Shown piece by piece: positions 5,307 to 40,750 of a stretch of DNA of 64,000 nt. The notes under the pieces are model-generated. The model had not been told where the DNA came from. It did no database searches and saw nothing but the letters and a program-made list of their open reading frames with translations. The translations under genes and the position numbers were made by a program. Numbering within the stretch: the stretch's first letter is position 1; every line of letters begins with the position of its first letter. This DNA is from Peristeroidobacter agariperforans (lineage in GTDB: Bacteria > Pseudomonadota > Gammaproteobacteria > Steroidobacterales > Steroidobacteraceae): contig NZ_RYFW01000004.1 in NCBI RefSeq assembly GCF_004138335.1, forward strand, positions 248,001 through 312,000, given 5' to 3'.

Positions 5307-5315
5307 GCGAGGACT

Positions 5316-6419: not shown

Positions 6420-6507
6420 CCGCCCATTGTTGACCGATAACCGGGGCGGTCATGCAAGCGGCGCGGATTATAGCGAAGATTTTCCCAACGCTATCGAGTA
6501 CTGCCCG

Positions 6508-6710: not shown

Positions 6711-6711
6711 A

Positions 6712-7200
6712 TTAACGTGCTTGCATTGATTTGGCTTGCTCCATGAGCCGGGCCAGCAGCCGATCGAGCGTACGCTGGTCGCTGGGATTGAGTGCGCTGA
6801 GCAATTCCGCCTCATAGCGCAAGGCCATCGGCGCCACGCGCGTGTAGACGGCCTGTCCGGCGGCAGACAGGCGGAGGATGGAGCGACGCCGGTCGCCCTT
6901 GTCGAACGCGCGCAACACACGTTTGTCATCGAGCAAGCCTTGGATCGCGCGGCTGACGGCGACTTTGTCCATGGCCGTGCGCTCGGCCACTTCGACGGCC
7001 GACAGGTCCGGGTAACGGGCCAGGACCGCCATCACGCGCCATTGCGGGATGGACAGGCCGAACTCCCGCTCGTAGGCGCCCGCGATCACCATGCTGACCG
7101 TATTGGTCAGCACCGACAGCCGGTAGGGAATGAAACGATCGAGCTGCAGCGAGCCGGCGTCCGGCGCGGCGTCGGCAACTTTTTCTCTAGATCCAGTCAT
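6712..7200 (-). CDS. MarR-family transcriptional regulator
   Basis: Winged helix-turn-helix regulator of 162 residues. IPQWRVMAVLARYPDLSAVE, the recognition helix VAERTAMDKVAVSRAIQGLL and the beta-wing DKGDRRRSILRLSAAGQ are the standard MarR order, with the conserved DxRR-like wing residues present. It is transcribed away from the HPPD gene with 80 bp between start codons, and that gap contains a 14-bp near-palindrome. MarR proteins of this kind usually regulate the divergent gene, so control of tyrosine/homogentisate catabolism in response to an aromatic ligand is likely (inference). The ligand is not predictable from the sequence. Confidence 0.9.
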   Translation of the reverse strand: MTGSREKVADAAPDAGSLQLDRFIPYRLSVLTNTVSMVIAGAYEREFGLSIPQWRVMAVLARYPDLSAVEVAERTAMDKVAVSRAIQGLLDDKRVLRAFDKGDRRRSILRLSAAGQAVYTRVAPMALRYEAELLSALNPSDQRTLDRLLARLMEQAKSMQAR

Positions 7201-29297: not shown

Positions 29298-29372
29298 TGG
29301 GGCGTCGCCAAGTGGTAAGGCAGCGGGTTTTGATCCCGCCATTCGGAGGTTCGAATCCTTCCGCCCCAGCCA
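29298..29372 (+). tRNA. tRNA-Gln (anticodon UUG), CCA encoded
   Basis: A 75-nt gene. The acceptor TGGGGCG (29298-29304) pairs fully with CGCCCCA (29362-29368), followed by discriminator G and an encoded CCA (29370-29372). The anticodon stem GCGGG/CCCGC encloses loop TTTTGAT, anticodon TTG, which reads CAA glutamine codons. The T-arm contains GTTCGAATC. It is the insertion target of the integron island: its 3' 50 bp recur at 40585-40634. Confidence 0.97.
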
Positions 29373-29373
29373 A
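29324..29373 (+). repeat. Left copy of 50-bp direct repeat (tRNA-Gln 3' end, att-like)
   Basis: Anticodon loop to CCA of the intact tRNA plus one base; exact match to 40585-40634. The following 35 bp also resemble the sequence after the right copy (A-rich, ending in AAACGCTG in both). Confidence 0.9.
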
Positions 29374-29626
29374 TATCAACTCTAAAAACAATAACTTAGA
29401 AACGCTGCTGCATTCGTTGAGGCCCCTGAGATCCCCCAGCGCAGGCACCAAGCTGGCACTAGCGCACGACGATGCATTCCGCGGAGTAGGACGAGTCTGG
29501 GGGCCTTCGCAGCTAACCGTTTGTCGCGAGGGGAAGAAGCGACGCTTGGATCGCGTACTGAAGAGTCACGCGCGAGAGCTTGCATTGGGGGAATGGCGGG
29601 ATTCGGTCCCGCCATTCGCGATCGGT
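29374..29626. other. Non-coding distal end of the integron array
   Basis: No supported gene lies between tRNA-Gln and the last attC. The one structure seen is a perfect 11-bp hairpin at 29591-29617, GAATGGCGGGA/TCCCGCCATTC with loop TTCGG and no T-tract. Its CCCGCCATTCG echoes the tRNA variable region and may be a remnant of an earlier insertion. Confidence 0.5.
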
Positions 29627-29717
29627 GCCTAGCGCCCAGGCTGAGCCGCGAGCAAAGGCGCAGCGCTTTTGCGAGTCGGGCGCGCTCTGCGCGCGAACTC
29701 GAGCCGGTTGTTAGGTG
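29627..29717 (-). repeat. attC of cassette 18 (array-distal, degraded)
   Basis: A 91-bp imperfect palindrome of the long 'GAGCCGCGAGCAAA' class. The inner core end is GTTAGGT on the plus strand. The outer end reads GCCTAGC instead of GCCTAAC, so the minus-strand crossover triplet GTT has become GCT. It is probably recombination-poor and marks the array end. Confidence 0.8.
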
Positions 29718-29862
29718 TGCTTCGCATGCTGCAACCACAAGGCCTCCCGGTGAACCGGTGACGCGGCGGCAAACTCCTCTGCAAATACATCTGGTCCTTC
29801 ATAGATGGAAATCGCCTTCGATGGATATCGCTCAGAGGCCAAATGTCGTTCAGTTCTTCCAT
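29629..29862 (-). CDS. Hypothetical cassette 18 protein
   Basis: A 77-residue frame starting at an ATG (29862) right beside attC 17, as cassette genes usually do: MEELNDIWPLSDIHRRRFPS. The last third is read from the attC itself (the RPTRKSAAPLLAAQPGR tail is a typical attC translation), leaving only about 45 residues of cassette-specific sequence. No domain is recognised. It may be non-coding; this is the shortest cassette in the array. Confidence 0.3.
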   Translation of the reverse strand: MEELNDIWPLSDIHRRRFPSMKDQMYLQRSLPPRHRFTGRPCGCSMRSTPNNRLEFARRARPTRKSAAPLLAAQPGR

Positions 29863-29864
29863 GG

Positions 29865-29956
29865 CAGCTAACGCCGCGCATGAGCCGCGAACAAAGTGCA
29901 TCGCACTTTGTGAGTCGGGCAAGCAGTGCTTGCGGACTCGATTCGCTTGTTAGCTG
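29865..29956 (-). repeat. attC of cassette 17
   Basis: A 92-bp site of the long class, with ends GCAGCTAAC and GTTAGCTGC on the plus strand. The outer heptamer of cassette 17 at its far end (30263) carries the same CAGCTAAC, confirming the cassette limits. Confidence 0.85.
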
Positions 29957-30255
29957 CCTGCTGCAAGCAATGCGAGCCTCTGAATGTTCTGAATGCCACG
30001 TTCCATCTTTATTCTCGCGGACGAGTTGGCGGAATGCACAGACATCTTCGGCGGCCTAAACCCGCGTGTGGCCACCGCCTCTTCGATCCACAAGACGACA
30101 TCGTATCCGGTTCCTTTCTCATCATCGCCTAGGTCGTGGTCGAGGCTGACTTCCGTAACGTTGCCTGTCTCGAGCAGCGCCACCGCCTCCGCCGGCCAGT
30201 ACACACGCACCCAGCCCTCGGGTGTAGCGCGCTCGTCGTCCAGGAAAACTTTCAT
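29950..30255 (-). CDS. Cyclic-phosphate-processing receiver-type protein (cassette 17)
   Basis: A 101-residue protein starting MKVFLDDERATPEGWVRV, then a helix VALLETGNVTEVSLDHDLGD with GTGYDVVLWIEEAVAT and HSANSSARIKMERGIQNIQR. The DDER and SLDHDLG acidic pairs match the small receiver-like domain named 'cyclic-phosphate processing receiver' (family recognised from memory). It lacks an attached output domain. The start at 30255 is the conserved MKVFLDDER N-terminus. The stop lies in attC 17. Role unproven; such proteins are frequent mobile passengers. Confidence 0.75.
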   Translation of the reverse strand: MKVFLDDERATPEGWVRVYWPAEAVALLETGNVTEVSLDHDLGDDEKGTGYDVVLWIEEAVATRGFRPPKMSVHSANSSARIKMERGIQNIQRLALLAAGS

Positions 30256-30262
30256 GCTCTGA

Positions 30263-30326
30263 CAGCTAACGTTTGCGCTCACGCGCGAGCGTCTTCGCGA
30301 GTCGCGTGCAGCGCATAGTTGGGTTG
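30263..30326 (-). repeat. attC of cassette 16
   Basis: A 64-bp site of the short 'CGCGAGCGTCTTCGCG' class, plus-strand ends CAGCTAAC and GTTGGGTTG. GTTGGGTTG matches the CAACCCAAC at the other end of cassette 16 (30854). Confidence 0.87.
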
Positions 30327-30330
30327 CAGC

Positions 30331-30843
30331 TCACGTTGCGAAACTGACGTAAAACAAGCGCTTTGTTGAGGGCTGAAGTAGCAGTACCTGCGCGCCTGCA
30401 GGAACGCGGCCATGGGTGTTCATACCCCAGAACATTATCTTCATCTGCTGGGAGTTGGCCATCTCAAATGAAGGAAAGCAATCCGCTCCCTCGTACTCAG
30501 CCCATTGGAGCGATTGTTCCAACGCGGCCGCTAATAGGTCGTTGGTTTCTGGTCCAGTCTGCCATTCGATGAGCATCGGCTCGGTGACAGAAACGTCTTC
30601 GAGCTGGATGCAGTAGTAATCAGTGTGGTCACCGGTAATGTCTCGTGCCGACACAGAACCGTCGATCACCGTCCAGTTCTGGGTTGTACTGAAACCGCCC
30701 CAATTCAGAACGAACAAGGCATCGTCCTTGTCCGTGCTCTTCTTGGGTCCAGAGAAGGACATGAAGGCGTAGACAGCCACTCCAGCCACTACAATCAGCG
30801 CTAATGCGCCGATGCATTGCAGAAGGATGCGGATGAATCTCAT
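30331..30843 (-). CDS. Hypothetical membrane-anchored protein (cassette 16)
   Basis: A 170-residue protein with one N-terminal membrane helix (LLQCIGALALIVVAGVAVYA) and a soluble remainder containing SVSARDITGDHTDYYCIQLE and QSLQWAEYEGADCFPSFEMA. It has no recognised domain. The start ATG at 30843 is 11 nt inside attC 15, with AAAGGG just upstream. The gene fills the cassette and ends next to attC 16, as expected for a genuine cassette gene. Confidence 0.7.
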   Translation of the reverse strand: MRFIRILLQCIGALALIVVAGVAVYAFMSFSGPKKSTDKDDALFVLNWGGFSTTQNWTVIDGSVSARDITGDHTDYYCIQLEDVSVTEPMLIEWQTGPETNDLLAAALEQSLQWAEYEGADCFPSFEMANSQQMKIMFWGMNTHGRVPAGAQVLLLQPSTKRLFYVSFAT

Positions 30844-30853
30844 AGCCCTTTTG

Positions 30854-30916
30854 CAACCCAACGCCGCGCGTCATGCGCGCGCGTCTTCGCGCGTCGCATG
30901 CACGCGCTTGTTATGC
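30854..30916 (-). repeat. attC of cassette 15
   Basis: A 63-bp short-class site with plus-strand ends CAACCCAAC and GTTATGC. The unusual GTTATGC exactly mirrors GCATAAC at the other end of cassette 15 (31764). So 30,857-31,770 is one cassette holding two convergent genes. Confidence 0.88.
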
Positions 30917-31184
30917 GATGACCCGCGCTACCTAACGAATGTTTCCAATTGACACTCCGATTGACCGGCGTAAAGTTTCCGGCGGAGCGTAGAAACTCCA
31001 TCAGGCGGGCAAGCTGCAACCCGAACATTGCGGCTTTTTTGTGCCCGAAGTTCGGAATGTAATGGTCGGGTGTCTTGGCGAATACAAGACCTGCTTGCAG
31101 GGAATAGCCGAGGCAGTACCTGTTGCTGTTTCTACCCACCCGACCGCCCACTTTTGCAACGTAGAAATTGCAGCAGGTGAACTC

Positions 31185-31385
31185 ATGAAGAATCGAAAGC
31201 TCAAGGTCCGAGCGGGACACTACGACCGCCTCAGCGCTGATCGGAACAGTTACAAGCCTAGTCCTCAAGTTCCTTTCGTCCTTCTCAAAGGTCTCTGGCT
31301 TGAAGAAGCCAACTTCCTCATCGGCCACAACATCAACGTCGAAGTTCGGGAGAATCAGCTGATTCTAACCGCCGAACGGGCCTGA
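31185..31385 (+). CDS. symE: SymE-like toxin of a type I addiction module (cassette 15, counter-oriented)
   Basis: A 66-residue protein: KLKVRAGHYDRL, then VPFVLLKGLWLEEANFLIGH and VEVRENQLILTAE. This follows the SymE pattern (L-KG-WLEEAGF-IG--V-V-V--G-L-IT). SymE in E. coli is an SOS-induced, RNA-associated toxin with an AbrB-like fold, held off by an antisense RNA (family knowledge). AGGTGA precedes the ATG. It reads against the cassette direction, so it must have its own promoter, and it has its own terminator at 31396-31421. An antisense RNA from the opposite strand is plausible but not identified. Confidence 0.8.
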   Translation: MKNRKLKVRAGHYDRLSADRNSYKPSPQVPFVLLKGLWLEEANFLIGHNINVEVRENQLILTAERA

Positions 31386-31395
31386 TCTCTACTCC

Positions 31396-31421
31396 GAGCC
31401 CTGGCAGTTATGTCAGGGCTC
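31396..31421 (+). terminator. Intrinsic terminator after symE
   Basis: GAGCCCTG (31396-31403) pairs with CAGGGCTC (31414-31421) across a 10-nt loop, followed by TTTCT. It lies 11 bp after the symE stop and may serve both convergent genes of the cassette. Confidence 0.75.
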
Positions 31422-31464
31422 TTTCTGGCGTGACGCCGGGAGCGCTATTCGTTGGTTTCGCTAG

Positions 31465-31749
31465 CTATGCTTCCTTCGCATCGCTCGGCTCATAAAACGG
31501 CGGCTCATGGATCTGCGGATTGATCTTGTAGGGTCCATTTAGGAACTCCGGCCGCAACTGTGGGTAGTCGCGCCAGAGACGCTCCTGAATGTCCAGCTGG
31601 ATCGTTGCCATAATCTCGGCGACAACTCGCTGATAGCTCTCGGAGCTCTTGGTCGAATCGAGATCTCGAATGAAGGCAGCGCTCTGGCCCAGCTTCGCTT
31701 GGATTTGCAATAGCAGAACGTTGAGGCGCTCTGCGTCGTCTGGGCTCAT
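31465..31749 (-). CDS. Hypothetical protein (cassette 15, cassette-oriented gene)
   Basis: A 94-residue, probably helical protein: MSPDDAERLNVLLLQIQAKL, FIRDLDSTKSSESYQRVVAE and LDIQERLWRDYPQLRPEFL. It has no recognised family. The ATG at 31749 has AGAAGA upstream; an in-frame ATG at 31767 lies inside the attC 14 core and is less likely. It converges on symE, from which it is separated by a terminator hairpin. Confidence 0.65.
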   Translation of the reverse strand: MSPDDAERLNVLLLQIQAKLGQSAAFIRDLDSTKSSESYQRVVAEIMATIQLDIQERLWRDYPQLRPEFLNGPYKINPQIHEPPFYEPSDAKEA

Positions 31750-31763
31750 CCGGTCTTCTTTAC

Positions 31764-31822
31764 GCATAACGCCCGAATTTAGCGGCGCGCGTAGCGCGTC
31801 CGCTGGAATGAGATGTTAGGCA
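31764..31822 (-). repeat. attC of cassette 14
   Basis: A 59-bp site; plus-strand ends CGCATAAC and GTTAGGC. GTTAGGC matches GCCTAAC at the far end of cassette 14 (32376). Confidence 0.85.
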
Positions 31823-31854
31823 GCTGCTCACTTGGTGCACCAATGAGCAGGTCT

Positions 31855-32325
31855 TCAAATGCCATCGGCCCTTCCTGCACGGACGAGTCCGTGCCAAGAC
31901 CACTTTGGGATTTGCAAGCCATCCGGTACATCCTCCGCCGAGTGGTGATAACGAGCCATCGTGGTTGTAGTGGCCCATGCAAAGTAATCGTGCAGCACGT
32001 CTCGGAGGTGTTCGTCACGCGCGAGTCCGACATCTTCCAACGCCCGATCGAAACACGCGATTGCCCGCCGGTCCATCTCCTCGTGCAGTCCATTGCCGCT
32101 GTGCATCCGGACGACGTAGGTTTCATCGCCGTACCGGTCAGAGTACGTCGTCGGTCCGCCTAGCGCCTCCGCCCAGTACGTGGCGAGGCGCTCGGTGTGC
32201 TGTGCGTGATACCCGTGGCTGAACGCATGGCTCACCACTTCGTCCTCCAGCACCCTGGTGTGCCACGCACTAGCCAATCTGAGCAGCCCATCTAGGCCAC
32301 CTACGGCTTCGTAGATCGTTGGCAT
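31855..32325 (-). CDS. Truncated haemoglobin (cassette 14)
   Basis: A 156-residue globin of the truncated (2/2) class. The N-terminal TIYEAVGGLDGLLRLASAWH is the usual pre-B/B-helix start, followed by FSHGYHAQHTERLATYWAEA and GDETYVVRMHSGNGLHEEMD, with the proximal His in or next to RMHSGNGLH. It probably binds O2 or NO. The start at 32325 is preferred because GGGGA lies 7 nt upstream; the ATG at 32343 lacks a ribosome site. A haem protein is an unusual integron passenger. Group II is likely but not certain. Confidence 0.85.
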   Translation of the reverse strand: MPTIYEAVGGLDGLLRLASAWHTRVLEDEVVSHAFSHGYHAQHTERLATYWAEALGGPTTYSDRYGDETYVVRMHSGNGLHEEMDRRAIACFDRALEDVGLARDEHLRDVLHDYFAWATTTTMARYHHSAEDVPDGLQIPKWSWHGLVRAGRADGI

Positions 32326-32375
32326 AGGTGTATCCCCGTTCATGAAAGATCGAAGGTAAACGTACGCATAAAGCC

Positions 32376-32436
32376 GCCTAACGACAGTGCTGAGGCGCGC
32401 GCGTTTCGCGCGTCGCTCTCGAGCACTTTGTTAGAG
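32376..32436 (-). repeat. attC of cassette 13
   Basis: A 61-bp short-class site, plus-strand ends GCCTAAC and GTTAGAG. The latter mirrors CTCTAAC at 32831 at the far end of cassette 13. Confidence 0.85.
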
Positions 32437-32439
32437 ATT

Positions 32440-32823
32440 TCATGGAAACGGCACGCGTGAAATGATCTGAGCGCCGAACAACCAAACAAGAAATGCGAAA
32501 GGAAGCTGAATAACCTGCAAGGCATGCACAGGTCTTGGCCCTCTGTGTACAAGCAGGCACATCACCACGCTGACTCCATACAAGAGAAACATCCACAAGA
32601 ACGACCAGTAATATGGCTCCCATGCATCGTTCTCGGTAAGTGGCGAAACCGCTATGGCATAGCCGAGGGCGCCGCAAAGAATGAATCCCGGGACAGCGCA
32701 AACGCATCGCCTCCACAACGCATTTCCCCGACCGACCCCGACATAGATAGCCGAGATTGCAAGCGGAACGGCGCCTAGGATCCAGACTTCATGAACCCAC
32801 CGCGACTGATATTCGGACAACAC
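32440..32823 (-). CDS. Hypothetical four-helix membrane protein (cassette 13)
   Basis: A 127-residue protein with about four membrane helices: VWILGAVPLAISAIYVGVG, VCAVPGFILCGALGYAIAV, YYWSFLWMFLLYGVSVVMCL and LPFAFLVWLFGAQI. It has no recognised family. The start is GTG at 32823 with GAGG about 7 nt upstream. It fills the cassette and stops directly before attC 13. Confidence 0.65.
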   Translation of the reverse strand: MLSEYQSRWVHEVWILGAVPLAISAIYVGVGRGNALWRRCVCAVPGFILCGALGYAIAVSPLTENDAWEPYYWSFLWMFLLYGVSVVMCLLVHRGPRPVHALQVIQLPFAFLVWLFGAQIISRVPFP

Positions 32824-32829
32824 TTCTAA

Positions 32830-32902
32830 CCTCTAACGGTGCCGCTGTGCCGCGAGCAAAGGCGCTTCGCCTTTGCGAGTCGGAACCAGCGGCTTGTTAG
32901 GA
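32830..32902 (-). repeat. attC of cassette 12
   Basis: A 73-bp long-class site (TGTGCCGCGAGCAAAGGCGC core), plus-strand ends CCTCTAAC and GTTAGGA. One mismatch to the far end of its cassette (CCCTAAC at 33369). Confidence 0.85.
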
Positions 32903-33358
32903 CTGATCTGACAATGCCAACTCATGGGGCGAAGCATACGAAGGCACCTTCTCTGGTGGACCGCCAAGAAACCAACGGATGTTGGTAACTGCCGGGTGCG
33001 CGGACAAGATCTCATGAACGGCAACGGCCAGTGACTGAAGCTCAGCTTCCACCGGAATTGCCTTGTGACCGAACAGACGCGCCAACGCGCCTGGTTGATT
33101 TAGCGGAGCGACGGCAAGCAACCAACCCTGCTGAGACTCTTCTCCGTACTCGGCAAAATACACCTCAAAGAGCTTCTCGCGGACCTGTACATGAACTACC
33201 CAGCCGCAGTCCCGCCAATTATCAAACTCCTCGACGGAGAATGAGCGGCTACGAAGTTTGCTCTCCAGTTCTCTGGCAAAGCTCGCGCCCGCGGGATGGT
33301 CGAATTCCAAATCCTTTGGGAAGGACGCAAGAAAGCTCGAATGAGGTACTGCTGTCAT
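32897..33358 (-). CDS. Hypothetical protein (cassette 12)
   Basis: A 153-residue soluble protein: FPKDLEFDHPAGASFARELE, FDNWRDCGWVVHVQVREKLF and EVYFAEYGEESQQGWLLAVA. The alternating strand pattern and small size resemble polymorphic-toxin immunity-like proteins, but no named family is recognised. The stop TAA lies within the GTTAGGA core of attC 12, a usual cassette layout. Confidence 0.65.
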   Translation of the reverse strand: MTAVPHSSFLASFPKDLEFDHPAGASFARELESKLRSRSFSVEEFDNWRDCGWVVHVQVREKLFEVYFAEYGEESQQGWLLAVAPLNQPGALARLFGHKAIPVEAELQSLAVAVHEILSAHPAVTNIRWFLGGPPEKVPSYASPHELALSDQS

Positions 33359-33367
33359 TCTTCTGTA

Positions 33368-33428
33368 GCCCTAACGCTATTGCTCACGCGCGTGCGTCTC
33401 GCACGTCGCGTGCAGCAATTTGTTGGGC
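33368..33428 (-). repeat. attC of cassette 11
   Basis: A 61-bp short-class site, plus-strand ends GCCCTAAC and GTTGGGC, matching GCCCAAC at 33899. Nearly identical to the attC of cassette 7. Confidence 0.87.
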
Positions 33429-33892
33429 GCCGCCACGTCCGCAACCATGACACCGTAGAACGTTCCGATAAATTCGCCTCCCAGCGGACCGCCAGACCAG
33501 TAGGAACCACTGACCCCAGTTTCGCTGAGTTCGCCCCGGAGTTCGTTATCGCTGTCACAGAGATTCGCTGTCAGATTCAGAACGAATGCTCGCCCCGTTA
33601 CCTGATATGCAGCCATGCCCTGAAACTGTGGGTGCTGTGCTGGTTCTTGCGCAAGGACTTCGGCACGGTACCAATCTTCGTTCGTACAGGATTCTCCTTT
33701 GTCTTCGGTCAGCCGTAGGGTCATCGACTGAATCAGCCGTTGCTTGCTATCGACGACTGCAATTGTCCAGAATGAATTGGCTTTCCAAGACGAAGGAGTC
33801 TGGAGCACCGTCAACCGCTCATGTTCGCTCGGTGTCTGCGAGGCGCATCCGACGGCAGCGACGAGGACCATGAGTGTGAATGCATTCTTCAT
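33377..33892 (-). CDS. Hypothetical lipoprotein (cassette 11)
   Basis: A 171-residue protein. The signal peptide MKNAFTLMVLVAAVGCASQ has a lipobox-like end at Cys16, so it is probably lipid-anchored. The mature part has SFWTIAVVDSKQRLIQSMTL, EDWYRAEVLAQEP and SGSYWSGGPLGGEFIGTFYG, suggesting a beta-rich fold. No family is recognised. The C-terminal NKLLHATCETHAREQ segment is translated from attC 11. The longer open frame upstream of 33892 runs through attC 10 and is not used. Confidence 0.65.
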   Translation of the reverse strand: MKNAFTLMVLVAAVGCASQTPSEHERLTVLQTPSSWKANSFWTIAVVDSKQRLIQSMTLRLTEDKGESCTNEDWYRAEVLAQEPAQHPQFQGMAAYQVTGRAFVLNLTANLCDSDNELRGELSETGVSGSYWSGGPLGGEFIGTFYGVMVADVAAPNKLLHATCETHAREQ

Positions 33893-33898
33893 TCTGAC

Positions 33899-33970
33899 GC
33901 CCAACGCCGCCGCTGTGCCGCGAGCAAAAGCGCCTCGCTTTTGCGAGTCGGAACCAGCGGCTTGTTGGGC
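33899..33970 (-). repeat. attC of cassette 10
   Basis: A 72-bp long-class site, ends GCCCAAC and GTTGGGC. Identical over all 72 bp to the attC of cassette 9 (34260-34331). Confidence 0.9.
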
Positions 33971-33995
33971 AGTTGCTCCGTACCCATGGCGATTC

Positions 33996-34250
33996 CTACT
34001 GCTCTGTCTGCGCGCTTTCGCGACGCAAGGCCCGCGAACAGGCGATGAATGCCGCCACCGCGCCTCCAAATGAACCCACCGCCAGAATAGTGGCGATGAC
34101 GGGCTGGCGGCATCGGAACGTTGGCGCGAAGAGTGAGTATTCGCAGTTGCACGCCGTGCACGCAAGGCTGGCCGACGACATGATCCACAGCGAGCAGTAC
34201 ACGCCAACTAGCACGAGCACTGCTCCGAGAACTGCATAGGCAATCTTCAT
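33996..34250 (-). CDS. Small hypothetical membrane protein (cassette 10)
   Basis: An 84-residue protein with two membrane helices (AYAVLGAVLVLVGVYCSLWI and TILAVGSFGGAVAAFIACS) joined by a Cys-rich loop (CTACNCEYSLFAPTFRC). The start ATG at 34250 is 10 nt inside attC 9. The loop cysteines suggest disulfides or metal binding on the outer face (inference). No family recognised. Confidence 0.6.
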   Translation of the reverse strand: MKIAYAVLGAVLVLVGVYCSLWIMSSASLACTACNCEYSLFAPTFRCRQPVIATILAVGSFGGAVAAFIACSRALRRESAQTEQ

Positions 34251-34259
34251 ATTTTTTAC

Positions 34260-34331
34260 GCCCAACGCCGCCGCTGTGCCGCGAGCAAAAGCGCCTCGCT
34301 TTTGCGAGTCGGAACCAGCGGCTTGTTGGGC
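34260..34331 (-). repeat. attC of cassette 9
   Basis: A 72-bp long-class site identical to the attC of cassette 10, ends GCCCAAC and GTTGGGC. The two exact copies flank the 84-residue membrane-protein cassette. Confidence 0.9.
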
Positions 34332-34335
34332 TGCC

Positions 34336-34809
34336 TCACTCTATCACCACTTTGTCGATGCGGGTGCCAGGTGGAAGCCTGGACACCTGTCTGTGTATCT
34401 GACCCGACACAGAGAAGTGAACCTCGATGTCCGAGACCTCTACATTGCCGACATCAACCTCGCCACCTAGCACCGGTGGGTGCTTGAAACTATAAATCTG
34501 CCCTCGCTGAAGCACGCACCCAGAAGAGCGGAGCTCACCCACCATTTGGACCGCAAAGTGACTACCGACAAATTGCCTATCCGATAGCAGCGTCCGAAAC
34601 TCTTCCACTGAGTCCGCCACCTTTTGTAGCTTGGCTTCGAGCGTGTCGAGAATGTGAATGCTGCCATCGTTAACATCTTGCACGAAGGCATCGCCGCTTG
34701 CTGCAAGCAATATTGGCAACTTGTGCGTGCCGATGAGCCATTCCCACTCGCTCAATATTGCTTCGCGATTCAGGTGACTGAAGTTCACGGTCAGATCATT
34801 CAAGGTCAC
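34336..34809 (-). CDS. Tdi1-type T6SS immunity / DUF1851-domain protein (cassette 9)
   Basis: A 157-residue protein: HKLPILLAASGDAFVQDVND, GSIHILDTLEAKLQKVADSV, QIYSFKHPPVLGGEVDVGNV and EVHFSVSGQIHRQVSRLPPG. This resembles the DUF1851 domain, later named for the Tdi1 immunity protein of type VI secretion toxins (from memory). The start is GTG at 34809 with GGAG 8 nt upstream. No toxin partner sits next to it, as expected for an orphan immunity gene carried by an integron. Function is inferred. Confidence 0.7.
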   Translation of the reverse strand: MTLNDLTVNFSHLNREAILSEWEWLIGTHKLPILLAASGDAFVQDVNDGSIHILDTLEAKLQKVADSVEEFRTLLSDRQFVGSHFAVQMVGELRSSGCVLQRGQIYSFKHPPVLGGEVDVGNVEVSDIEVHFSVSGQIHRQVSRLPPGTRIDKVVIE

Positions 34810-34830
34810 GTCTCTGCTCCTTCCTCTGAA

Positions 34831-34920
34831 GCCCAACGCTAGCGATGAGCCGCGAGCAAAAGCGCATCGCTTTTGCGAGTCGGGCGACCAACGGGAGCGG
34901 ACTCGATCGCTTTGTTAGGC
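34831..34920 (-). repeat. attC of cassette 8
   Basis: A 90-bp long-class site, ends GCCCAAC and GTTAGGC, the latter matching GCCTAAC at 35333. Confidence 0.87.
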
Positions 34921-35327
34921 ATCTTCGAGCATCCGCTTGAATTCTTCTTTCTTCCCGTTGCCATTGACATGAAGTATGAGAGTCGTTGCATTTCTGTGCT
35001 CGGATGCATGGCTGCAAACTTTGAAAATCCGAAGACCTCGCTCAAGGACTCAGACTCATGCCATGTCGTCATGACGAAGTTGTCTTCGGGTACGTCACGG
35101 AAATCGAACTGCTCAAGATTCGCTAAATCGACGGAATCATCCCAGGAGCTGCACCCTGGCCCCCAGGCCATCATGTAGAGACAGCCAGAATCCACCAACC
35201 ATCGGCTGATCTCAACCTGGCGCGCCACAGAGACTGAGGACTCAATGATTACTACACACTTATATGGCGCAAGCGCTCTGACGTCGGGCAGTGTGCCAAC
35301 TTCGGTGACGGGCTGATACTCGATCAT
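34839..35327 (-). CDS. 'FVMT-WH' family protein, first copy (cassette 8)
   Basis: A 162-residue protein: LAPYKCVVIIESSVSVARQV, WLVDSGCLYMMAWGPGCSSW, DDSVDLANL and PEDNFVMTTWHESESLSEVF. The core W-D-x-VDLA...P-D-x-FVMT-x-WH...E-L is shared with the protein of cassette 3, so two distant members of one family ride in this array. It resembles DUF7684 (tentative). The start at 35327 is the first ATG after attC 7. The C-terminal 30 residues are attC-derived. Function unknown. Confidence 0.65.
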   Translation of the reverse strand: MIEYQPVTEVGTLPDVRALAPYKCVVIIESSVSVARQVEISRWLVDSGCLYMMAWGPGCSSWDDSVDLANLEQFDFRDVPEDNFVMTTWHESESLSEVFGFSKFAAMHPSTEMQRLSYFMSMATGRKKNSSGCSKMPNKAIESAPVGRPTRKSDALLLAAHR

Positions 35328-35332
35328 CTTCA

Positions 35333-35392
35333 GCCTAACGCCATTGCTCACGCGCGCGCGTTTCGCGCGTCGCGTGCAGCAATTTGTTGGGC
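35333..35392 (-). repeat. attC of cassette 7
   Basis: A 60-bp short-class site, ends GCCTAAC and GTTGGGC, matching GCCCAAC at 35810. Confidence 0.88.
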
Positions 35393-35395
35393 ACC

Positions 35396-35800
35396 TCACA
35401 CATACGTCCAGTGAAACTCAGAGCCGAAGACACCACTCTCCGCAACCGAGCGAACGGCGCCAAGCGCGTGCTCCAGGCTGACAACGTAGCAGGCGGGATA
35501 GTCGGCGAGTTGACCACCGACGACCAAGTCGATGTGGGGATCTTCTGCAATTGACGGGTCGGTAAGCGTCGGAAAAGACTCGGCCGCCACGGAGCCGGAA
35601 ACGATGTACTTTCCGGAACCGCCGCCAACCGTCAATGACACGTCGGCGTTGCCCTCAAGGCCTAGGTGCACGTCGTTCAGATTGCAATTGTTCATAGCGC
35701 GTATAGCTGACTCGACCTCAGCCCACGACGGTTTATCAATCACCGTATCGGTCCGGCCTCTCTCGTTCCAATCGCAGATTGTCAGGCTCCGAATCCTCAT
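35396..35800 (-). CDS. Imm1-family immunity protein (cassette 7)
   Basis: A 134-residue protein: PSWAEVESAIRAMNNCNLND, SLTVGGGSGKYIVSG, HIDLVVGGQLADYPACYVVS and LEHALGAVRSVAESGVF. The VGGG-G-Y and VVGGQ signatures and overall order match the Imm1 family, which protects against deaminase/nuclease polymorphic toxins (family knowledge). The start ATG is at 35800, just inside attC 6. There is no adjacent toxin. It probably guards against a competitor's toxin (inference). Confidence 0.78.
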   Translation of the reverse strand: MRIRSLTICDWNERGRTDTVIDKPSWAEVESAIRAMNNCNLNDVHLGLEGNADVSLTVGGGSGKYIVSGSVAAESFPTLTDPSIAEDPHIDLVVGGQLADYPACYVVSLEHALGAVRSVAESGVFGSEFHWTYV

Positions 35801-35809
35801 TCCCTTACC

Positions 35810-35869
35810 GCCCAACGCCGCCGCTCAGGCGCGCGCGTCCCGCGCGTCGCCTGCAGCGGTTTGTTGGGC
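35810..35869 (-). repeat. attC of cassette 6
   Basis: A 60-bp short-class site, ends GCCCAAC and GTTGGGC, matching GCCCAAC at 36251. Confidence 0.88.
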
Positions 35870-36247
35870 ATCAGCTGACCTTAGGACCGGCTCCGACTCC
35901 GATAAAACATCTACGCACTGATTTCCTGATTTAACAAACCAGTGGATTAGAGGAAAGGAGTCCATTGTACTAGCGGCAGACCGTCGAAACGCCACGATGT
36001 ACTCGGAACCATGGACGCGCCAGATCAGCCCAGGCTCTACAGGGATCGAGCGAAGGCGATGACCTTCATCTATACATTGGAATGCCCTTTCAGGCGCGAA
36101 CTCTACCCAGACGCGAACCGAACCGGAAAGACCCTCCGCAATACCGATTTTCAACCCATCCTCCACGGACCAGCTCACCTCCAGAATCTCTGGATTCTGA
36201 AAATGACCCTCCGTAGGTATCCAGAGCTCGAATGTCTCTTCGCTCAT
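35825..36247 (-). CDS. Hypothetical protein (cassette 6)
   Basis: A 140-residue soluble protein: SEETFELWIPTEGHFQNPEI, EVSWSVEDGLKIGIAEGLSG and SVRVWVEFAPERAFQCIDEG, looking beta-rich. No named family is recognised; size and composition are like small immunity-type proteins. The start ATG 36247 immediately precedes attC 5 in the array. The last 20 residues (ADAQQTAAGDARDARA) are attC-encoded. Confidence 0.6.
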   Translation of the reverse strand: MSEETFELWIPTEGHFQNPEILEVSWSVEDGLKIGIAEGLSGSVRVWVEFAPERAFQCIDEGHRLRSIPVEPGLIWRVHGSEYIVAFRRSAASTMDSFPLIHWFVKSGNQCVDVLSESEPVLRSADAQQTAAGDARDARA

Positions 36248-36250
36248 GAT

Positions 36251-36322
36251 GCCCAACGCCCACGCTGTGCCGCGAGCAAAGGCGCTTCGCCTTTGCGAGT
36301 CGGAACCAGCGTGATGTTAGGC
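36251..36322 (-). repeat. attC of cassette 5
   Basis: A 72-bp long-class site, ends GCCCAAC and GTTAGGC, matching GCCTAAC at 36750. Confidence 0.88.
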
Positions 36323-36745
36323 GCTCTGTCGCGCCAAGCGATCACGAATTTCATCTCGCGCTCCTCGTTGCAGGAGTAGCCAGAGATCGAGTGCCTCATG
36401 CCTCGAAACGCCGCGACGCTCACAAATCATCTCGCCGTTCGAACTGAAGATCACGAGACCATGCTCGTAAACGTCGACGGTCCAGCCATCCGCGTCTGTT
36501 AACCACGTATTCGGGTGCTCCTCATCGGGCGTGTCTAGTTCCACCAAGGCCGCTTGCAGTTCCTCAAGCGTCGGATTGTCTGGGCCGCCACCCCACCGAC
36601 ATTCAAGACCCGTATCTATGGTCGATGATGCCGACCGCTTTCGCGGTGGGCTTGCTGCGGGCGGGGCTGTGCAATACGGGCAGAACTCTTCCGTTGCCGG
36701 CCGAGGCTTTCCGCACGCGCTGCAATGTCTAACTGACGCATTCAT
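36317..36745 (-). CDS. Zinc-ribbon protein (cassette 5)
   Basis: A 142-residue protein. The N-terminus CSACGKPRPATEEFCPYC is a CxxC-x10-CxxC zinc ribbon, followed by a Pro/Ser/Lys linker and a domain with ADGWTVDVYEHGLVIFSSNG, EMICERRGVSRHEALDLWLL. The C-terminal domain is not recognised; its strand order resembles immunity-type folds (weak). The start ATG 36745 lies 5 nt from attC 4. The stop lies in the attC 5 core. Confidence 0.65.
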   Translation of the reverse strand: MNASVRHCSACGKPRPATEEFCPYCTAPPAASPPRKRSASSTIDTGLECRWGGGPDNPTLEELQAALVELDTPDEEHPNTWLTDADGWTVDVYEHGLVIFSSNGEMICERRGVSRHEALDLWLLLQRGARDEIRDRLARQSA

Positions 36746-36749
36746 CTGT

Positions 36750-36810
36750 GCCTAACGCCGCGCATCACGCGCGTGCGTCCTCGCACGTCGCGTGCATGCG
36801 CTTGTTAGCC
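36750..36810 (-). repeat. attC of cassette 4
   Basis: A 61-bp short-class site, ends GCCTAAC and GTTAGCC. One mismatch to the far end (GCCTAAC at 37489). Confidence 0.86.
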
Positions 36811-36819
36811 CATGCGCCA

Positions 36820-37476
36820 TTATCTTTCCCATTCGACCGCAACCTCTTTTGTTTCTTTGTCGTTATATGCAGTCAGCCGCGCCGACACGTGTCGACCCGC
36901 CCAGTTGATGCTCGAAACAAAGTACCTGTACTCGGCACCGTGCTGTTCAGCTGCTAAGCGTACTGCTTTTTCAGCCGACTCGCCCTTGAGCGTGAGCTGC
37001 AACATCACGGCCATCACGACAGCCAATACGCTTCCAGCAAGGAACGCTAACCTGGGCGCGCCCGATTTGTGACCTGCCGTAGCACGAGCCTCCAAGACAG
37101 GCGGCGAGCGTAGCTCCCTATAGACCCAAAAGAGCATGAACAACACTGCGGGAAGCAAGACCATCGAACCCAGAGAACTGAGGGGATCTTCGCGAAACGT
37201 AATCAGCCAGTACTCCAATGGCTGCAACCACGGAGAAATTATTAAGGACCCAAGCAGGAAGCCGGAGAGCATAAATGCGCTGAACCAGGTAACTATCCGC
37301 GCAGTGTCTAAACTGCCTCTGACCAGAAAGATGCCTGCGACGACTGTAAAGATGTTTAGGCTAGATGAGTAACTCATCTGATTGGTAATGCAGTAGATCA
37401 TGAAGCCTATATCCAAGGCTCCCACGACGATGAGAAGCCAACCGACGCGCGCGAGTATTCTCCGGTGCTCAGGCAT
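36820..37476 (-). CDS. Hypothetical multi-pass membrane protein (cassette 4)
   Basis: A 218-residue protein with about five membrane helices, e.g. VGWLLIVVGALDIGFMIYCI, FSAFMLSGFLLGSLIISPWL and LLPAVLFMLFWVYREL. A C-terminal extracytoplasmic domain of about 65 residues includes SAEKAVRLAAEQHGAEYRYF and INWAGRHVSARLTAYND. The start ATG is at 37476. No family is assigned. It is the largest cassette gene in the array. Confidence 0.65.
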   Translation of the reverse strand: MPEHRRILARVGWLLIVVGALDIGFMIYCITNQMSYSSSLNIFTVVAGIFLVRGSLDTARIVTWFSAFMLSGFLLGSLIISPWLQPLEYWLITFREDPLSSLGSMVLLPAVLFMLFWVYRELRSPPVLEARATAGHKSGAPRLAFLAGSVLAVVMAVMLQLTLKGESAEKAVRLAAEQHGAEYRYFVSSINWAGRHVSARLTAYNDKETKEVAVEWER

Positions 37477-37488
37477 AGGTTTTTCGGG

Positions 37489-37577
37489 GCCTAACGACAA
37501 CAATGAGCCGCGCGGCGCGATGAGGCTAACGAAGGGCGCATACGTTTCACCGCGTCGGCTCCATTGTTTTGTTGGAT
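37489..37577 (-). repeat. attC of cassette 3
   Basis: An 89-bp site of a third class, with GACAACAATGAGCCGCGCGG and a CACCGCGTCGGCTCCATTG arm. Ends GCCTAAC and GTTGGAT, matching ATCCAAC at 38017. Confidence 0.86.
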
Positions 37578-38002
37578 TGCAGCAGCCCGCGCACGAGGGC
37601 CTCCGCCTGCTGCACCCCTGGATCGTCGCCGATGGCGACTATGACAAACGCGGAGGGCTCGAAGAAGTCAAAGGACGTGTTCAGCACAAAGAACTCGGCG
37701 ATGTCTTGCAGCGGTTCTTGACAGTGCCACGAGGTCATAACGAACCTGTCGTCAGGCGGCTTGAATTCTGCAGATGTATCGAGGAACGCCAAGTCAACTG
37801 CGTCGTCCCATTTTGATGCTTCGAAACCGGAGCAAACGGCGTACCTGCATCCGGAGCCCACCAACTCCGCTGCGATCTTGTCCCGCTCCGCCGCGGTTTG
37901 CGTTCGATCATGGGAGATGATCCACGCAGCGTACTCCGTGCCCGGCACGGGCGATCGAAATGCGTACGGTCGGGACAATGCGTTAGAGAAGACGCGTTGC
38001 AT
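37547..38002 (-). CDS. 'FVMT-WH' family protein, second copy (cassette 3)
   Basis: A 151-residue protein: GTEYAAWIISHDRTQTAAER, ELVGSGCRYAVCSGFEASKW, DDAVDLAFLDTSAEFKPPDD and RFVMTSWHCQEPLQDIAEFF. The W-DDAVDLA...P-D-x-FVMT-x-WH core is shared with the cassette 8 protein, plus the preceding x-GSGC-Y segment. AGGAAG lies 6 nt before the ATG at 38002. Function unknown; DUF7684 is a tentative family name. Two copies under different attC classes imply independent capture rather than tandem duplication. Confidence 0.65.
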   Translation of the reverse strand: MQRVFSNALSRPYAFRSPVPGTEYAAWIISHDRTQTAAERDKIAAELVGSGCRYAVCSGFEASKWDDAVDLAFLDTSAEFKPPDDRFVMTSWHCQEPLQDIAEFFVLNTSFDFFEPSAFVIVAIGDDPGVQQAEALVRGLLQSNKTMEPTR

Positions 38003-38016
38003 TCCTGCTTCCTGCA

Positions 38017-38106
38017 ATCCAACGACAACGATGAGCCGCGCGGCGGGATGTCGCTGAGGAAAAGCGCCAAGGTTTCACCGCGTCGGCTCCATTGTTTTGT
38101 TAGGGA
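38017..38106 (-). repeat. attC of cassette 2
   Basis: A 90-bp site of the same class as the attC of cassette 3, ends ATCCAAC and GTTAGGG, matching CCCTAAC at 38557. Confidence 0.86.
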
Positions 38107-38548
38107 GCACACGCCGCTGCGCAGCCGTGAGGAGCTGACTCGTTGTGACAACTGACTGCCCTTCGGCTCGCTGCGTAAACCCGCGAGCCTCGAACTCGAC
38201 CTCGCCCCCAGGCCAACTTATCGGAAGCCTCCATACCTGCGCTTCGTAACTCACTCGACTCTCCACCCGTCGCTCCATCCCGTCAATCATAAATGGACCG
38301 AATGCGGCGGTGGCCGCGGCGTAGTCAATCGAGATTCGAGGGAACATGACGCCATGAAAGATAAGCGTCGCGGGCTGCACCCGAAACTTGAATCCACCGT
38401 CCTCGCCTTTTAGCCACTCAAGAATGTGGTCGATGTCGAGTACCAGCTCCCCCTCCCCATTTTCTCCCTCAACAAACCGAATCCCATGAACGTGGTTGTC
38501 GTGCCACGACATGCGATCAAAGTCCGCTTCCGTCCAGACTTCCTGCAT
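38075..38548 (-). CDS. Hypothetical protein (cassette 2)
   Basis: A 157-residue protein: VWTEADFDRMSWHDNHVHGI, ELVLDIDHILEWLKGEDGGF and KFRVQPATLIFHGVMFPRIS. The 'WHDNHVHGIRF' opening and 'LDIDHILEWL' are distinctive, but the family has no known function to me. GGGAG lies 6 nt before the ATG at 38548, a good ribosome site. The last residues (RVLPNKTMEPTR) come from attC 2. Confidence 0.68.
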   Translation of the reverse strand: MQEVWTEADFDRMSWHDNHVHGIRFVEGENGEGELVLDIDHILEWLKGEDGGFKFRVQPATLIFHGVMFPRISIDYAAATAAFGPFMIDGMERRVESRVSYEAQVWRLPISWPGGEVEFEARGFTQRAEGQSVVTTSQLLTAAQRRVLPNKTMEPTR

Positions 38549-38556
38549 TCGCTGCT

Positions 38557-38623
38557 CCCTAACGCCGCCGTTAACCCGGCGCGCGCGTCTTCGCGCGCGA
38601 TCGGGTTGAACGGCTTGTTCGGC
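38557..38623 (-). repeat. attC of cassette 1 (attI-proximal)
   Basis: A 67-bp short-class site, ends CCCTAAC and GTTCGGC. GTTCGGC is unusual and exactly mirrors GCCGAAC at 39079-39085, which fixes the attI/cassette junction. Confidence 0.88.
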
Positions 38624-39068
38624 TCTCATCAGCAAGCTCGTTCAGTATTGCGATGTCTTCGTTTGCTTCGCTGCGCCTTAGGGGACGAGTACAACTCGTC
38701 GCCTCGTAGTAGCCATCCTTGTCTGGGCCATATGCGAACACGAGGAAGACTCCCGATTTCGGGAACTCATAGCCGCATAGGCAGCACGTGATCGCTGACT
38801 GAACAAACACGCGGCTCGCTTTTTCGCCCTTCCATGCCTCGAGAATATAGAACTGCGTTCTCTGATACTCGACCTCGAAGTCACCCTCTTCCATAAGCGT
38901 GAAGCGCTCCGTGCCCTCGATGCGGCCCAGGAAGACGAGCTGCGCTCTTTCGAATCGATCAGCCACAGCTGTCCGCTTGTCATTGCTCTCTCGGATGCAG
39001 GAGCAAGCACCTGACACGCCGACAGCTCCGACAGTCAAGGCAAGAACGCAGAGAATGGCTTTAGTCAT
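38571..39068 (-). CDS. Secreted NTR/TIMP-like protein (cassette 1)
   Basis: A 165-residue protein with signal peptide MTKAILCVLALTVGAVGVSGA and a mature N-terminus CSCIRESNDKRTAVADRFER. Then come AQLVFLGRIEGTERFTLMEE, FYILEAWKGEKASRVFVQ and CCLCGYEFPKSGVFLVFAYG. An N-terminal Cys-x-Cys followed by a beta-barrel with paired cysteines is the layout of netrin/TIMP-like (NTR) domains. It could instead be a lipoprotein processed at Cys22. As the attI-proximal cassette it is the most recently acquired and should be best expressed. The C-terminal tail is attC-encoded. Confidence 0.7.
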   Translation of the reverse strand: MTKAILCVLALTVGAVGVSGACSCIRESNDKRTAVADRFERAQLVFLGRIEGTERFTLMEEGDFEVEYQRTQFYILEAWKGEKASRVFVQSAITCCLCGYEFPKSGVFLVFAYGPDKDGYYEATSCTRPLRRSEANEDIAILNELADESRTSRSTRSRAKTRAPG

Positions 39069-39078
39069 AGTCTTCCGG

Positions 39079-39335
39079 GCCGAACTCTTATATAGACCGC
39101 CTACATGCGGTAGTTAGTGCCGAGGCGTATTTCTGGAGGCCGCAAAAGTGCGGTGTATCCCCCCGCCAACCTGGCTCCGCCTTCCGCTTTCGTCCCATAT
39201 CTTCATGACTTAGGCACTTATTGGGCAATTCGCCCAGAAATACTACCGCACCCGACTCCGTTTGGTGGCCAAGATAGTGCCGCATGGTTGCCAGCGTCAA
39301 TCCGCCGGGTCACCGGAGTGAACAAGGAGGTTCTT
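39079..39335. promoter_or_regulatory. attI site and intI upstream region
   Basis: The cassette junction is GCCGAAC at 39079-39085 (GTTCGGC on the cassette strand). Next to it lie ACCGC/GCGGT inverted bases at about 39097-39112 and TGGGC-AATTC-GCCCA at about 39223-39237. An ideal ribosome site, AGGAGG, is at 39325-39330. The region should hold attI, the cassette promoter Pc (leftwards) and the intI promoter, but no confident -35/-10 pair and no LexA box were identified by eye. Confidence 0.65.
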
Positions 39336-40322
39336 ATGTCGCCTGATTCGCAGGATCGAAACTCGCCGCGGCTGCTCGACCAAGTACGTGAGCTGATACG
39401 AATCCGCCACTACAGCATCCGTACCGAGCAAGCATATGTGCAGTGGATCAAGAGATTCATTCTGTTCCATGACAAACGCCATCCGCTCGAAATGGGCGCC
39501 GATGAGGTCACAGCGTTTCTCAGCCACTTGGCCGTGAAGCGCAATGTAGCGGCTTCCACGCAGAACCAAGCGCTGAACGCCATCCTGTTTCTGTACCGCG
39601 ACGTGTTGAGATGCACATTGCCGTGGCTGGAGGGCGTACAGCGCGCCAAGAAGCCGCAGCGATTGCCAGTGGTGCTCACTCGCGATGAGGTCAGAGCCCT
39701 GCTCGCGCAAATGCAAGGCACCACCTGGCTCATGGCGGCGCTCGTTTACGGCGGCGGGTTGCGGCTGCTGGAATGCCTGCGCATTCGAGTGAAGGACATC
39801 GATTTCCAGTATCGCCAACTGGTCATCCGTGACGCCAAAGGCCAGAAGGACCGCATTACACTGTTGCCGCAGAACCTGTTCGAGCCGCTAGGCAACCATC
39901 TCGTCCGCGTACGTGCGCTACATGAGAACGATCTTCGCGAAGGCTATGGATGCGTCTATCTGCCATTTGCGCTGGCACAGAAGTATCCGACGGCGGAAAG
40001 AGATTGGGGCTGGCAGTATGCCTTCCCGTCGACACGTCGCTCGATGGATCCGCGCTCCGGCGTAGAACGGCGCCATCATGCGCCGGAAGACTCGCTGCAG
40101 CGTGCTGTTCGTCAGGCAGTGCAAAGAGCCGGCATCATCAAACCCGCCAGCGTTCACACGCTGCGCCACTCGTTCGCCACTCATCTGCTCGAATCAGGCT
40201 ATGACATCCGCACGGTCCAGGAACTACTGGGCCATGCAGACGTGAAGACGACGATGATCTACACGCACGTGCTGAATCGCGGCGGCAGGGGAGTCGTCAG
40301 TCCGTTCGAAACTATCGCCTGA
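39336..40322 (+). CDS. intI: Integron integrase (tyrosine recombinase)
   Basis: A 328-residue tyrosine recombinase that recombines attC and attI. The N-terminal SAM-like domain has [20 protein letters not shown]. The catalytic domain has Arg in [19 protein letters not shown], Lys in [11 protein letters not shown], His/Arg in [20 protein letters not shown], His in [11 protein letters not shown] and Tyr in IYTHV. The IntI-specific insert is present ([20 protein letters not shown]), separating it from XerC/D. AGGAGG 5 nt before the ATG fixes the start. All catalytic residues are intact. It reads away from the array, as usual. Confidence 0.96.
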
Positions 40323-40584
40323 GAGCCCAGCTCCATTTCCCCCCAAGTGGCGGCTGGGCGGCACGGCCTTGGGATTTGGCGAGGCGCCTGTCCGCGGTCG
40401 CGGACAAGGGCCGCAGTCGCGGATACGCGCATTATTGCGTCCCCCGCTTTCGACCGCGTCCTTTAACTCGTTCACCGGCATCGCTGGTGCCAGCTTTGGT
40501 GCCAGCCACGGGGAATCGATGGGACTGGAGGGGATTGAAAATCCGCCACGATCAGTAAGTTGCTGATTCGGTCAGTCCTCTTGT
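40323..40584. other. Non-coding strip between intI and the right repeat
   Basis: No gene is supported. The sequence has a repeated GGTGCCAGC (two copies at about 40488-40510) and short inverted repeats (TCCGCGGTCGCGGA near 40390). It may hold the remains of an island end. Confidence 0.4.
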
Positions 40585-40634
40585 CGGGTTTTGATCCCGC
40601 CATTCGGAGGTTCGAATCCTTCCGCCCCAGCCAA
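40585..40634 (+). repeat. Right copy of 50-bp direct repeat (tRNA-Gln 3' end)
   Basis: An exact copy of 29324-29373. It contains the anticodon loop through CCA only, so it cannot encode a tRNA. The A-rich sequence that follows resembles that after the intact tRNA, so duplication or homology extends about 35 bp further with mismatches. Confidence 0.92.
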
Positions 40635-40676
40635 CCACAATAGTTAAAACAACAATCTAGAAAACGCTGTCGCGCT

Positions 40677-40750
40677 CGCTCCGGGTGAGCCGTAAGCAAC
40701 GGCGGCGCGCTTTTATGATTCGGGCGCGCCAGCGCGAACTTTTGTTACCC
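40677..40750 (-). repeat. Degenerate attC outside the island
   Basis: GTGAGCCGTAAGCAACGGCG, then CGCTTTTATGATTCGGGCGC and GCGCGAAC...GTTACCC align with the cassette 18 attC with scattered changes and a short deletion. One core end (GTTACCC) is recognisable; the other is lost. Confidence 0.65.

Follow-up and report, generated by a model that had tools for sequence, protein, structure and literature searches.

Apparently integrase-less tandem islands at tRNA-Gln in Peristeroidobacter agariperforans and relatives, with a complete chromosomal-type integron as probable cargo

The window analysed here is a 64,000 bp stretch of the 7.65 Mb genome of Peristeroidobacter agariperforans (G000; positions 248001–312000 of contig C12, NZ_RYFW01000004.1), in which a complete integron lies between two copies of the 3′ end of a tRNA-Gln gene. 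We interpret this integron as the cargo of one lineage in a family of tandem islands at tRNA-Gln that resemble cis-mobilizable elements (CIMEs) and lack an integrase gene of their own, and we give this interpretation a probability of about 0.8. The integron-bearing island (element 1) is the first of two tandem islands in G000, the other being element 2. Coordinates are listed in Table 1.

The tRNA-Gln(TTG) is the sole tRNA found by ARAGORN in the window and follows a gene that we take to be ispE from the gene order and an earlier first-pass annotation, rather than from a family model. The repeated part runs from the anticodon stem to the 3′ end of the tRNA, and both 50 bp copies (tails 1 and 2) are 100 % identical to the query. 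With up to three mismatches allowed, a 31-base stretch of the tail matched twice in the window versus no match in 100 shuffles, and a 21-base piece has exactly two exact matches in the whole genome. Element 1 is therefore flanked by a direct repeat of a tRNA 3′ end, the hallmark of a tRNA-targeted island, and it retains both attL and attR, as a CIME does, with identical tails and with repeats at both ends. The mirror-image repeats of its left end lie 70–90 bp past tail 1.

Past tail 1, element 1 opens with a left end of roughly 254 bp. The 18 attC sites and their cassettes follow, then the expected attI region and intI, and a 262 bp right end leads up to tail 2. An IntI-type integrase (TIGR02249, cut-off 265 bits) and an array of 18 attC sites are what define an integron, and the first-pass annotation, which had described the exact repeat around intI and 18 attC sites from the sequence alone, was confirmed on each count. 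Sixteen of the attC sites were found by two scripts (11 by one and 5 more by the other), one (29866–29954) was recognized as a member of repeat family D2 and one (approximately 36751–36810) by reading. A stricter initial regular expression found only 6 sites, and the second script also yielded 3 spurious candidates. Both scripts are unspecific, giving 5 and 41 candidates, respectively, in both strands of the flanks (1–28000 and 43000–64000), and the real sites are distinguished by their likeness to one another and their spacing.

The usual neighbour of tRNA-Gln in gammaproteobacteria is prs. The tRNA tail and prs (identified here by TIGR01251, 397.7 bits) were sought in 150 genomes of the family; both could be placed in 133, and 17 lacked one or both. 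Measured from the intact tRNAs among the matches listed, prs begins 33–357 bp after the tail, i.e. the site is empty, in 113 of the 133. In ten, the two share a contig but are separated by 486 bp to 79 kb, and in another ten they lie on different contigs. The distance is 79,463 bp in G000, 35,929 bp in G001, 15,213 bp in G003 and 6,409 bp in G126. A third, decayed tail is found in G000 outside the window, 68 kb past the second and directly before prs, and the sequence past it enters prs directly, as does that past tRNA-Gln in G009. Because most relatives have prs immediately after tRNA-Gln and the third tail enters prs as in G009, the 79 kb that separate tRNA-Gln from prs are an insertion, of which the integron makes up the first 11 kb. 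A tRNA-targeted insertion with an empty site in relatives, as previously proposed, is thus borne out.

A common right-end module joined to the tail was found at 11 places in seven genomes from three genera, namely in G000 (two), G001, G003, G011 (three, one of them on a second contig), G126, G161 and G171 (two). One of the two in G000 accompanies the third tail directly before prs. The layout consists of paired direct GGTGCCAG repeats, or close variants of them, that start 83–101 bp before the tail, followed by a palindrome around ATCAGTAAGTTRCTGAT and then by the tail. GTGCCA is present in the repeats of 10 of the 11 right ends and occurs twice in six; in the eleventh (in G171) two copies of ATAGACAG replace GGTGCCAG. 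Relative to the G000 copy, the four ends from outside the genus have kept 79 % of the repeat positions, 85 % of those in the palindrome and 82 % of those in the tail, but 34 % of the sequence ahead of the repeats; these percentages are biased upwards because the ends were picked by similarity. Tails located before prs are decayed (80–93 % identity where aligned). Inverted arms on either side of a tRNA core are the substrate of a lambda-type, arm-binding tyrosine integrase, and the fit of the ends to such an enzyme is well supported for the right ends and partly supported for the left ends.

The module matched 13 of 396 order-level genomes at E ≤0.01, and only five (G000, G001, G003, G011 and G126) were below 1e-8. 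Ends of the ATAGACAG type, with spacing similar to that of the GGTGCCAG type, are found in L131 (G171:C266) at about 1950–2094 and in L138 (G161:C296) at 4330–4459, the latter without a tRNA tail. A right end with a tail was absent from G023, G033, G087, G103, G144 and G155 (486 bp), in all of which tRNA-Gln and prs are apart on one contig. The 11 do not include a tail in G001 that is fused to a truncated intI (the gene reaches base 607 and then joins the last 35 bases of a tail, the module being gone), a tail at G016:C65, a decayed end that precedes prs in G016 (profile E 0.02; 32/50 tail positions, equalled at 3 of 500 random places), tail-less profile matches in G161 (two) and G023, and weak extra matches in G108, G172, G161 and G081.

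Islands are in tandem at tRNA-Gln in G000, G001, G011 and G171. Two tandem integron-bearing elements are present in G011, both with a broken intI and with 95–96 % and 84–87 % identity to G000 where aligned, and the right end of a third element precedes prs on another contig. In G000, element 2 now carries genes for an RHS protein, a TonB-dependent receptor, a pyrroloquinoline quinone (PQQ) dehydrogenase and other genes; it appears once to have held a cassette end, because an attC-like remnant follows its left end. No transfer genes were found among the 15 cassette proteins and nine element 2 proteins that were scanned with Pfam.

That the second tail arose by local tandem duplication or from an assembly error would account for the identity of the two 50 bp copies. 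However, the same end module adjoins the tail at 11 places, in seven genomes, the flanks of tails 1 and 2 diverge after about 35 bp, and empty sites exist, and we regard this origin as extremely unlikely. The earlier concern about the assembly can likewise be set aside as improbable, because the junction of intI, right-end module and tail recurs in G011. The first-pass annotation had also left open that the whole integron was either moved or tandemly duplicated. Movement agrees with the low synonymous divergence of intI (see below), but simple duplication is not supported in G000, as element 2 is not a copy of element 1; G011 does carry two tandem integron-bearing elements, of different divergence. 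The repeat is indeed an island junction. However, it is not the boundary of the integron itself, as the tail is the right end of an island family that is mostly free of integrons. Relatives without an integron that carry a second tRNA fragment had been named as evidence against the initial interpretation, and they were found (G003 and G126, and also G161 and G171, in the sequence examined). The observation was right, and its interpretation needs to be widened to a family of tandem islands at tRNA-Gln.

The segment from tRNA-Gln to prs, referred to here as the gap, was searched for recombinase genes in all 20 genomes in which the two are apart, the different-contig cases being judged from the contig ends only. 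For PF00589, nothing was found in the gap sequence of the 20 genomes other than intI in G000 and intI remnants in G001 and G011. IntI is therefore the only tyrosine recombinase found in the 79 kb gap of G000, in agreement with the first-pass annotation. A serine recombinase was considered as the mover and rejected, as PF00239 had no match in the gaps of the seven genomes with right ends. The islands thus have no integrase gene of their own in the gap sequence examined.

Since no other tyrosine recombinase gene was found in the 79 kb, IntI might itself have integrated the element at tRNA-Gln, in which case the integron would be self-mobile via an attachment site 3′ of intI, and intI or a remnant of it does stand beside 3 of the 11 right ends (once in G000, twice in G011), about 260 bp from the tail. 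However, no intI was found beside the other eight right ends of the same kind in the sequence examined. The SAM-like core-binding domain of IntI begins near residue 13, leaving no N-terminal arm-binding domain that could use the conserved repeats, and on reading, the 50 bp tail contains no RYYYAAC/GTTRRRY core. At least 566 relatives of IntI were confirmed and the best 80 named loci were kept, among which the closest (71 % identical) is from a Steroidobacter metagenome-assembled genome. The right-end module is in none of the 80 (best E 0.64), nor is a repeated tRNA 3′ end, which is a weak negative because only two of the 80 contain any tRNA and many of the loci are short. We consider movement by IntI very improbable. 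As it lacks an arm-binding domain and eight of the 11 right ends are without intI, IntI is probably cargo.

Synonymous divergence between G000 and copy 1 of G011 is 0.094 and 0.115 for intI (103 and 82 codons), versus 0.558 for ispE, 0.712 for lolB and 0.388 for prs, such that intI is approximately 3 to 8 times less diverged than the flanking core genes. Between G000 and G001, the values are 0.108 for intI, 0.197 for ispE and 0.175 for prs. The attC site at 36247–36320 shares 98.6 % identity between G000 and G011, and intI or its remnants are present at the tRNA-Gln site in three species of the genus. Because intI is less diverged at synonymous sites than the core genes and the attC site is nearly identical, the integron was most likely transferred between the species after they had split, as judged from these sequence comparisons.

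We propose that the tRNA-Gln between ispE and prs is the target of a genomic island family, and infer a helper integrase, its crossover point, a circular intermediate and a transfer route. The enzyme would be an arm-binding (heterobivalent) tyrosine integrase whose gene is located elsewhere or has been lost, and it would recombine the part of the tRNA from the anticodon to the 3′ end with a matching core of a circular island. Each insertion would keep the tRNA whole at the left and leave a 50 bp tail at the right. Islands would retain their right ends (tail and arm-type repeats) and some left ends, have no integrase gene, and accumulate in tandem like CIMEs, and one lineage, consisting almost entirely of a complete chromosomal-type integron (intI and 18 cassettes), would have passed between species.

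Several findings weigh against this proposal. Left-end arms are present in only 4 of 10 left ends (element 1 of G000 and of G001, and two in G011) and missing from six, namely element 2 in both G000 and G001 and the ends beside the intact tRNA in G003, G126, G171 and G161. The right-end profile matches left ends only weakly and on the reverse strand (E 0.0058 in G000 and 0.0076 in G001, and not in G011). The tail at G016:C65 (L095, 1540–1587; 98 % over 48 bp) has no upstream arm repeats and no profile match. The six left ends without arms and this one tail without the module lower our confidence slightly. Between G000 and copy 1 of G011, intI is 95–96 % identical but the 152 bp right-end module no more than 77 %; the element is therefore a mosaic, in which gene conversion could account for some of the low divergence of intI. 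Nothing demonstrates that the islands are still mobile.

The integrase is also assumed, because none with these arms was found. In six genomes, 40 stretches surrounding integrase genes were scanned for the arms; the sole paired match (L262) is inside a long ABC permease-like open reading frame (ORF; by eye) and was taken as chance. A pattern of palindrome half and anticodon stem had no match in viral contigs and, among 369 class-level genomes, matched only the genome under study, and a paired arm repeat pattern likewise had no match in viral contigs; these exact patterns are insensitive: of the 11 known ends, each recognizes no more than one or two (the one used on the 369 genomes, just one). 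A less strict arm-palindrome pattern matched 39 viral stretches, some in near-identical groups, that the right-end profile does not recognize (best E 0.32) and that were rejected, among them L271, which adjoins an alanine racemase-like ORF (by eye). Matches were obtained to 91 phage and 84 plasmid records, none above 80 % of the query, and the 20 rows listed for each cover little beyond the tRNA part.

Either all of the integrases were lost or the islands rely on a helper. The islands may be only relics that lost their own integrase after insertion and are not mobilized in trans, which is a version of the interpretation preferred here and does not exclude it. Such an outcome is consistent with the decay of the tails before prs, with the broken intI of G001 and G011 and with the frequent absence of left-end arms, and tandem islands of this type are described as generally decayed (PMC5704250). 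On the other hand, no integrase remnant besides those of intI is present in the examined gaps of seven genomes from three genera, tail 2 of G000 is still identical to tail 1, and intI is little diverged between species. We put the relic version at somewhat less than even odds. A stronger claim, that these are a lasting family of non-autonomous, integrase-less satellites with arm-type right ends, mobilized in trans by an integrase yet to be found, which has made a chromosomal integron a travelling one, is rather doubtful. If it is true, the sister ends of G171 and G161 with ATAGACAG in place of GGTGCCAG would mark a second helper. Integrase loss versus dependence on a helper is thus the point of interest, and two ends of about 250 bp with a tRNA tail form a compact system in which to seek the recombinase.

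Chromosomal integrons are large stores of cassettes that are generally thought to stay within their lineages. Sedentary examples in Vibrio, Xanthomonas and Pseudomonas consist of intI and an array of attC cassettes, mostly of unknown function, and are usually regarded as immobile. The integron studied here is likewise chromosomal, with intI and an attC-ended cassette array. However, it is bounded by island ends, and its intI has most likely crossed from one species to another. Class 1 integrons in islands such as Salmonella genomic island 1 (SGI1) are passengers in an island that has its own int. As in SGI1, an integrative island carries the integron, but in element 1 the integron takes up nearly the whole island, and an int gene was not found. 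An integron of a supposedly immobile kind thus seems to have been carried between species by a tRNA island, which would offer whole cassette arrays a concrete route between species without transposons or plasmids. No report of a chromosomal integron as a tRNA island, or pairing an integron integrase with tRNA-Gln, was found among the open-licence papers listed.

CIMEs keep their att sites, lack integration genes and occur in tandem at one site (PMC5704250). The tRNA-Gln islands also keep att-like ends (element 1 at both sides), have no integration genes apart from intI and are in tandem at one site. However, no autonomous integrative and conjugative or integrative and mobilizable element (ICE or IME) was found to share these ends, and element 1 carries as its cargo a complete integron that has a different recombinase of its own. 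The Dehalococcoides ssrA islands are in tandem at one RNA gene with direct repeats, and 15 that are without integration modules were suggested to be CIMEs (PMC3146451). The tandem arrangement at one RNA gene, the direct repeats and the lack of an integration module are shared with the islands described here. However, relatives of the ssrA islands do have an integration module, with serine recombinases, whereas the arm-type repeats at tRNA-Gln suggest a tyrosine integrase, and none was found.

Table 1. Features of the tRNA-Gln locus (positions in the window)
Feature	Position	Strand	Basis or detail
Intact tRNA-Gln (TTG), target gene	29298..29372	+	ARAGORN
tRNA-Gln 3′ end, copy 1	29324..29373	+	exact 50 bp direct repeat
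Left end of element 1	29374..29627	+	inverted arm-type repeats near 29443–29462; aligned parts match G011 at 89 % and G001 at 74 %
attC array, 18 sites with cassettes, reading leftwards from intI	29628..38622	-	two scripts, repeat family D2, reading
attC starts, sites 1–9	~29628, 29866, 30267, 30859, 31767, 32377, 32834, 33370, 33900	-	
attC starts, sites 10–18	~34261, 34832, 35334, 35811, 36252, 36751, 37490, 38020, 38558	-	
Region upstream of intI, putative attI place	39069..39335	+	88 % to G011 copy 1, 91 % to G001
intI, complete integron integrase, 328 aa	39336..40322	+	TIGR02249, 489.5 bits; PF00589 and PF13495
Right-end module common to the islands	40433..40584	+	paired repeats GGTGCCAGCTTTGGTGCCAG at 40486–40505; palindrome at 40551–40568
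tRNA-Gln 3′ end, copy 2; junction of elements 1 and 2	40585..40634	+	exact repeat
Left end of element 2, then attC-like remnant (~40677–40736)	40635..40736	+	like the left end of element 1 over ~35 bp; no arm repeats

Four of the 15 cassette proteins scanned with Pfam were above the family cut-off, with matches to a cyclic-phosphate receiver domain, a bacterial globin, a type VI secretion system (T6SS) immunity domain (Tdi1 C-terminal) and DUF7684. The protein with the Tdi1 C-terminal domain is encoded in the cassette at 34339–34836, and an Imm1-like protein, below the cut-off, in that at 35399–35815. In element 2, a 2030 aa RHS-repeat protein with DUF6531 is located beside a 658 aa protein without a Pfam match (45762–51854). 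The left end of element 1 includes an inverted repeat, GAATGGCGGGA-TTCGG-TCCCGCCATTC, at 29591–29617, the right half of which looks like the beginning of the tRNA tail but has a different loop; the repeat could be either a terminator or an att core that has decayed.

In other genomes, AATAAGTTGCT is found upstream of the tail at G016:C65, a contig of only 3.3 kb. A 62 bp scrap of right end without a tRNA tail is present at G001:C3:694618, in an integrase-bearing element beside a dusA-like gene (by eye; L121, G001:C3:690000–705000, 4619–6780). The 6.4 kb insertion at tRNA-Gln in G126 (L087, G126:C52, 2347–7937) encodes ApeA-like HEPN, SIR2-like and Fic proteins and looks like a small phage-defence island. 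In L128 (G155:C50), three copies of 18–20 nt of the tRNA-Gln 3′ end (810–829, 948–967 and 1085–1102) follow tRNA-Gln in steps of about 138 bp, with GC-rich hairpin-like repeats in between.

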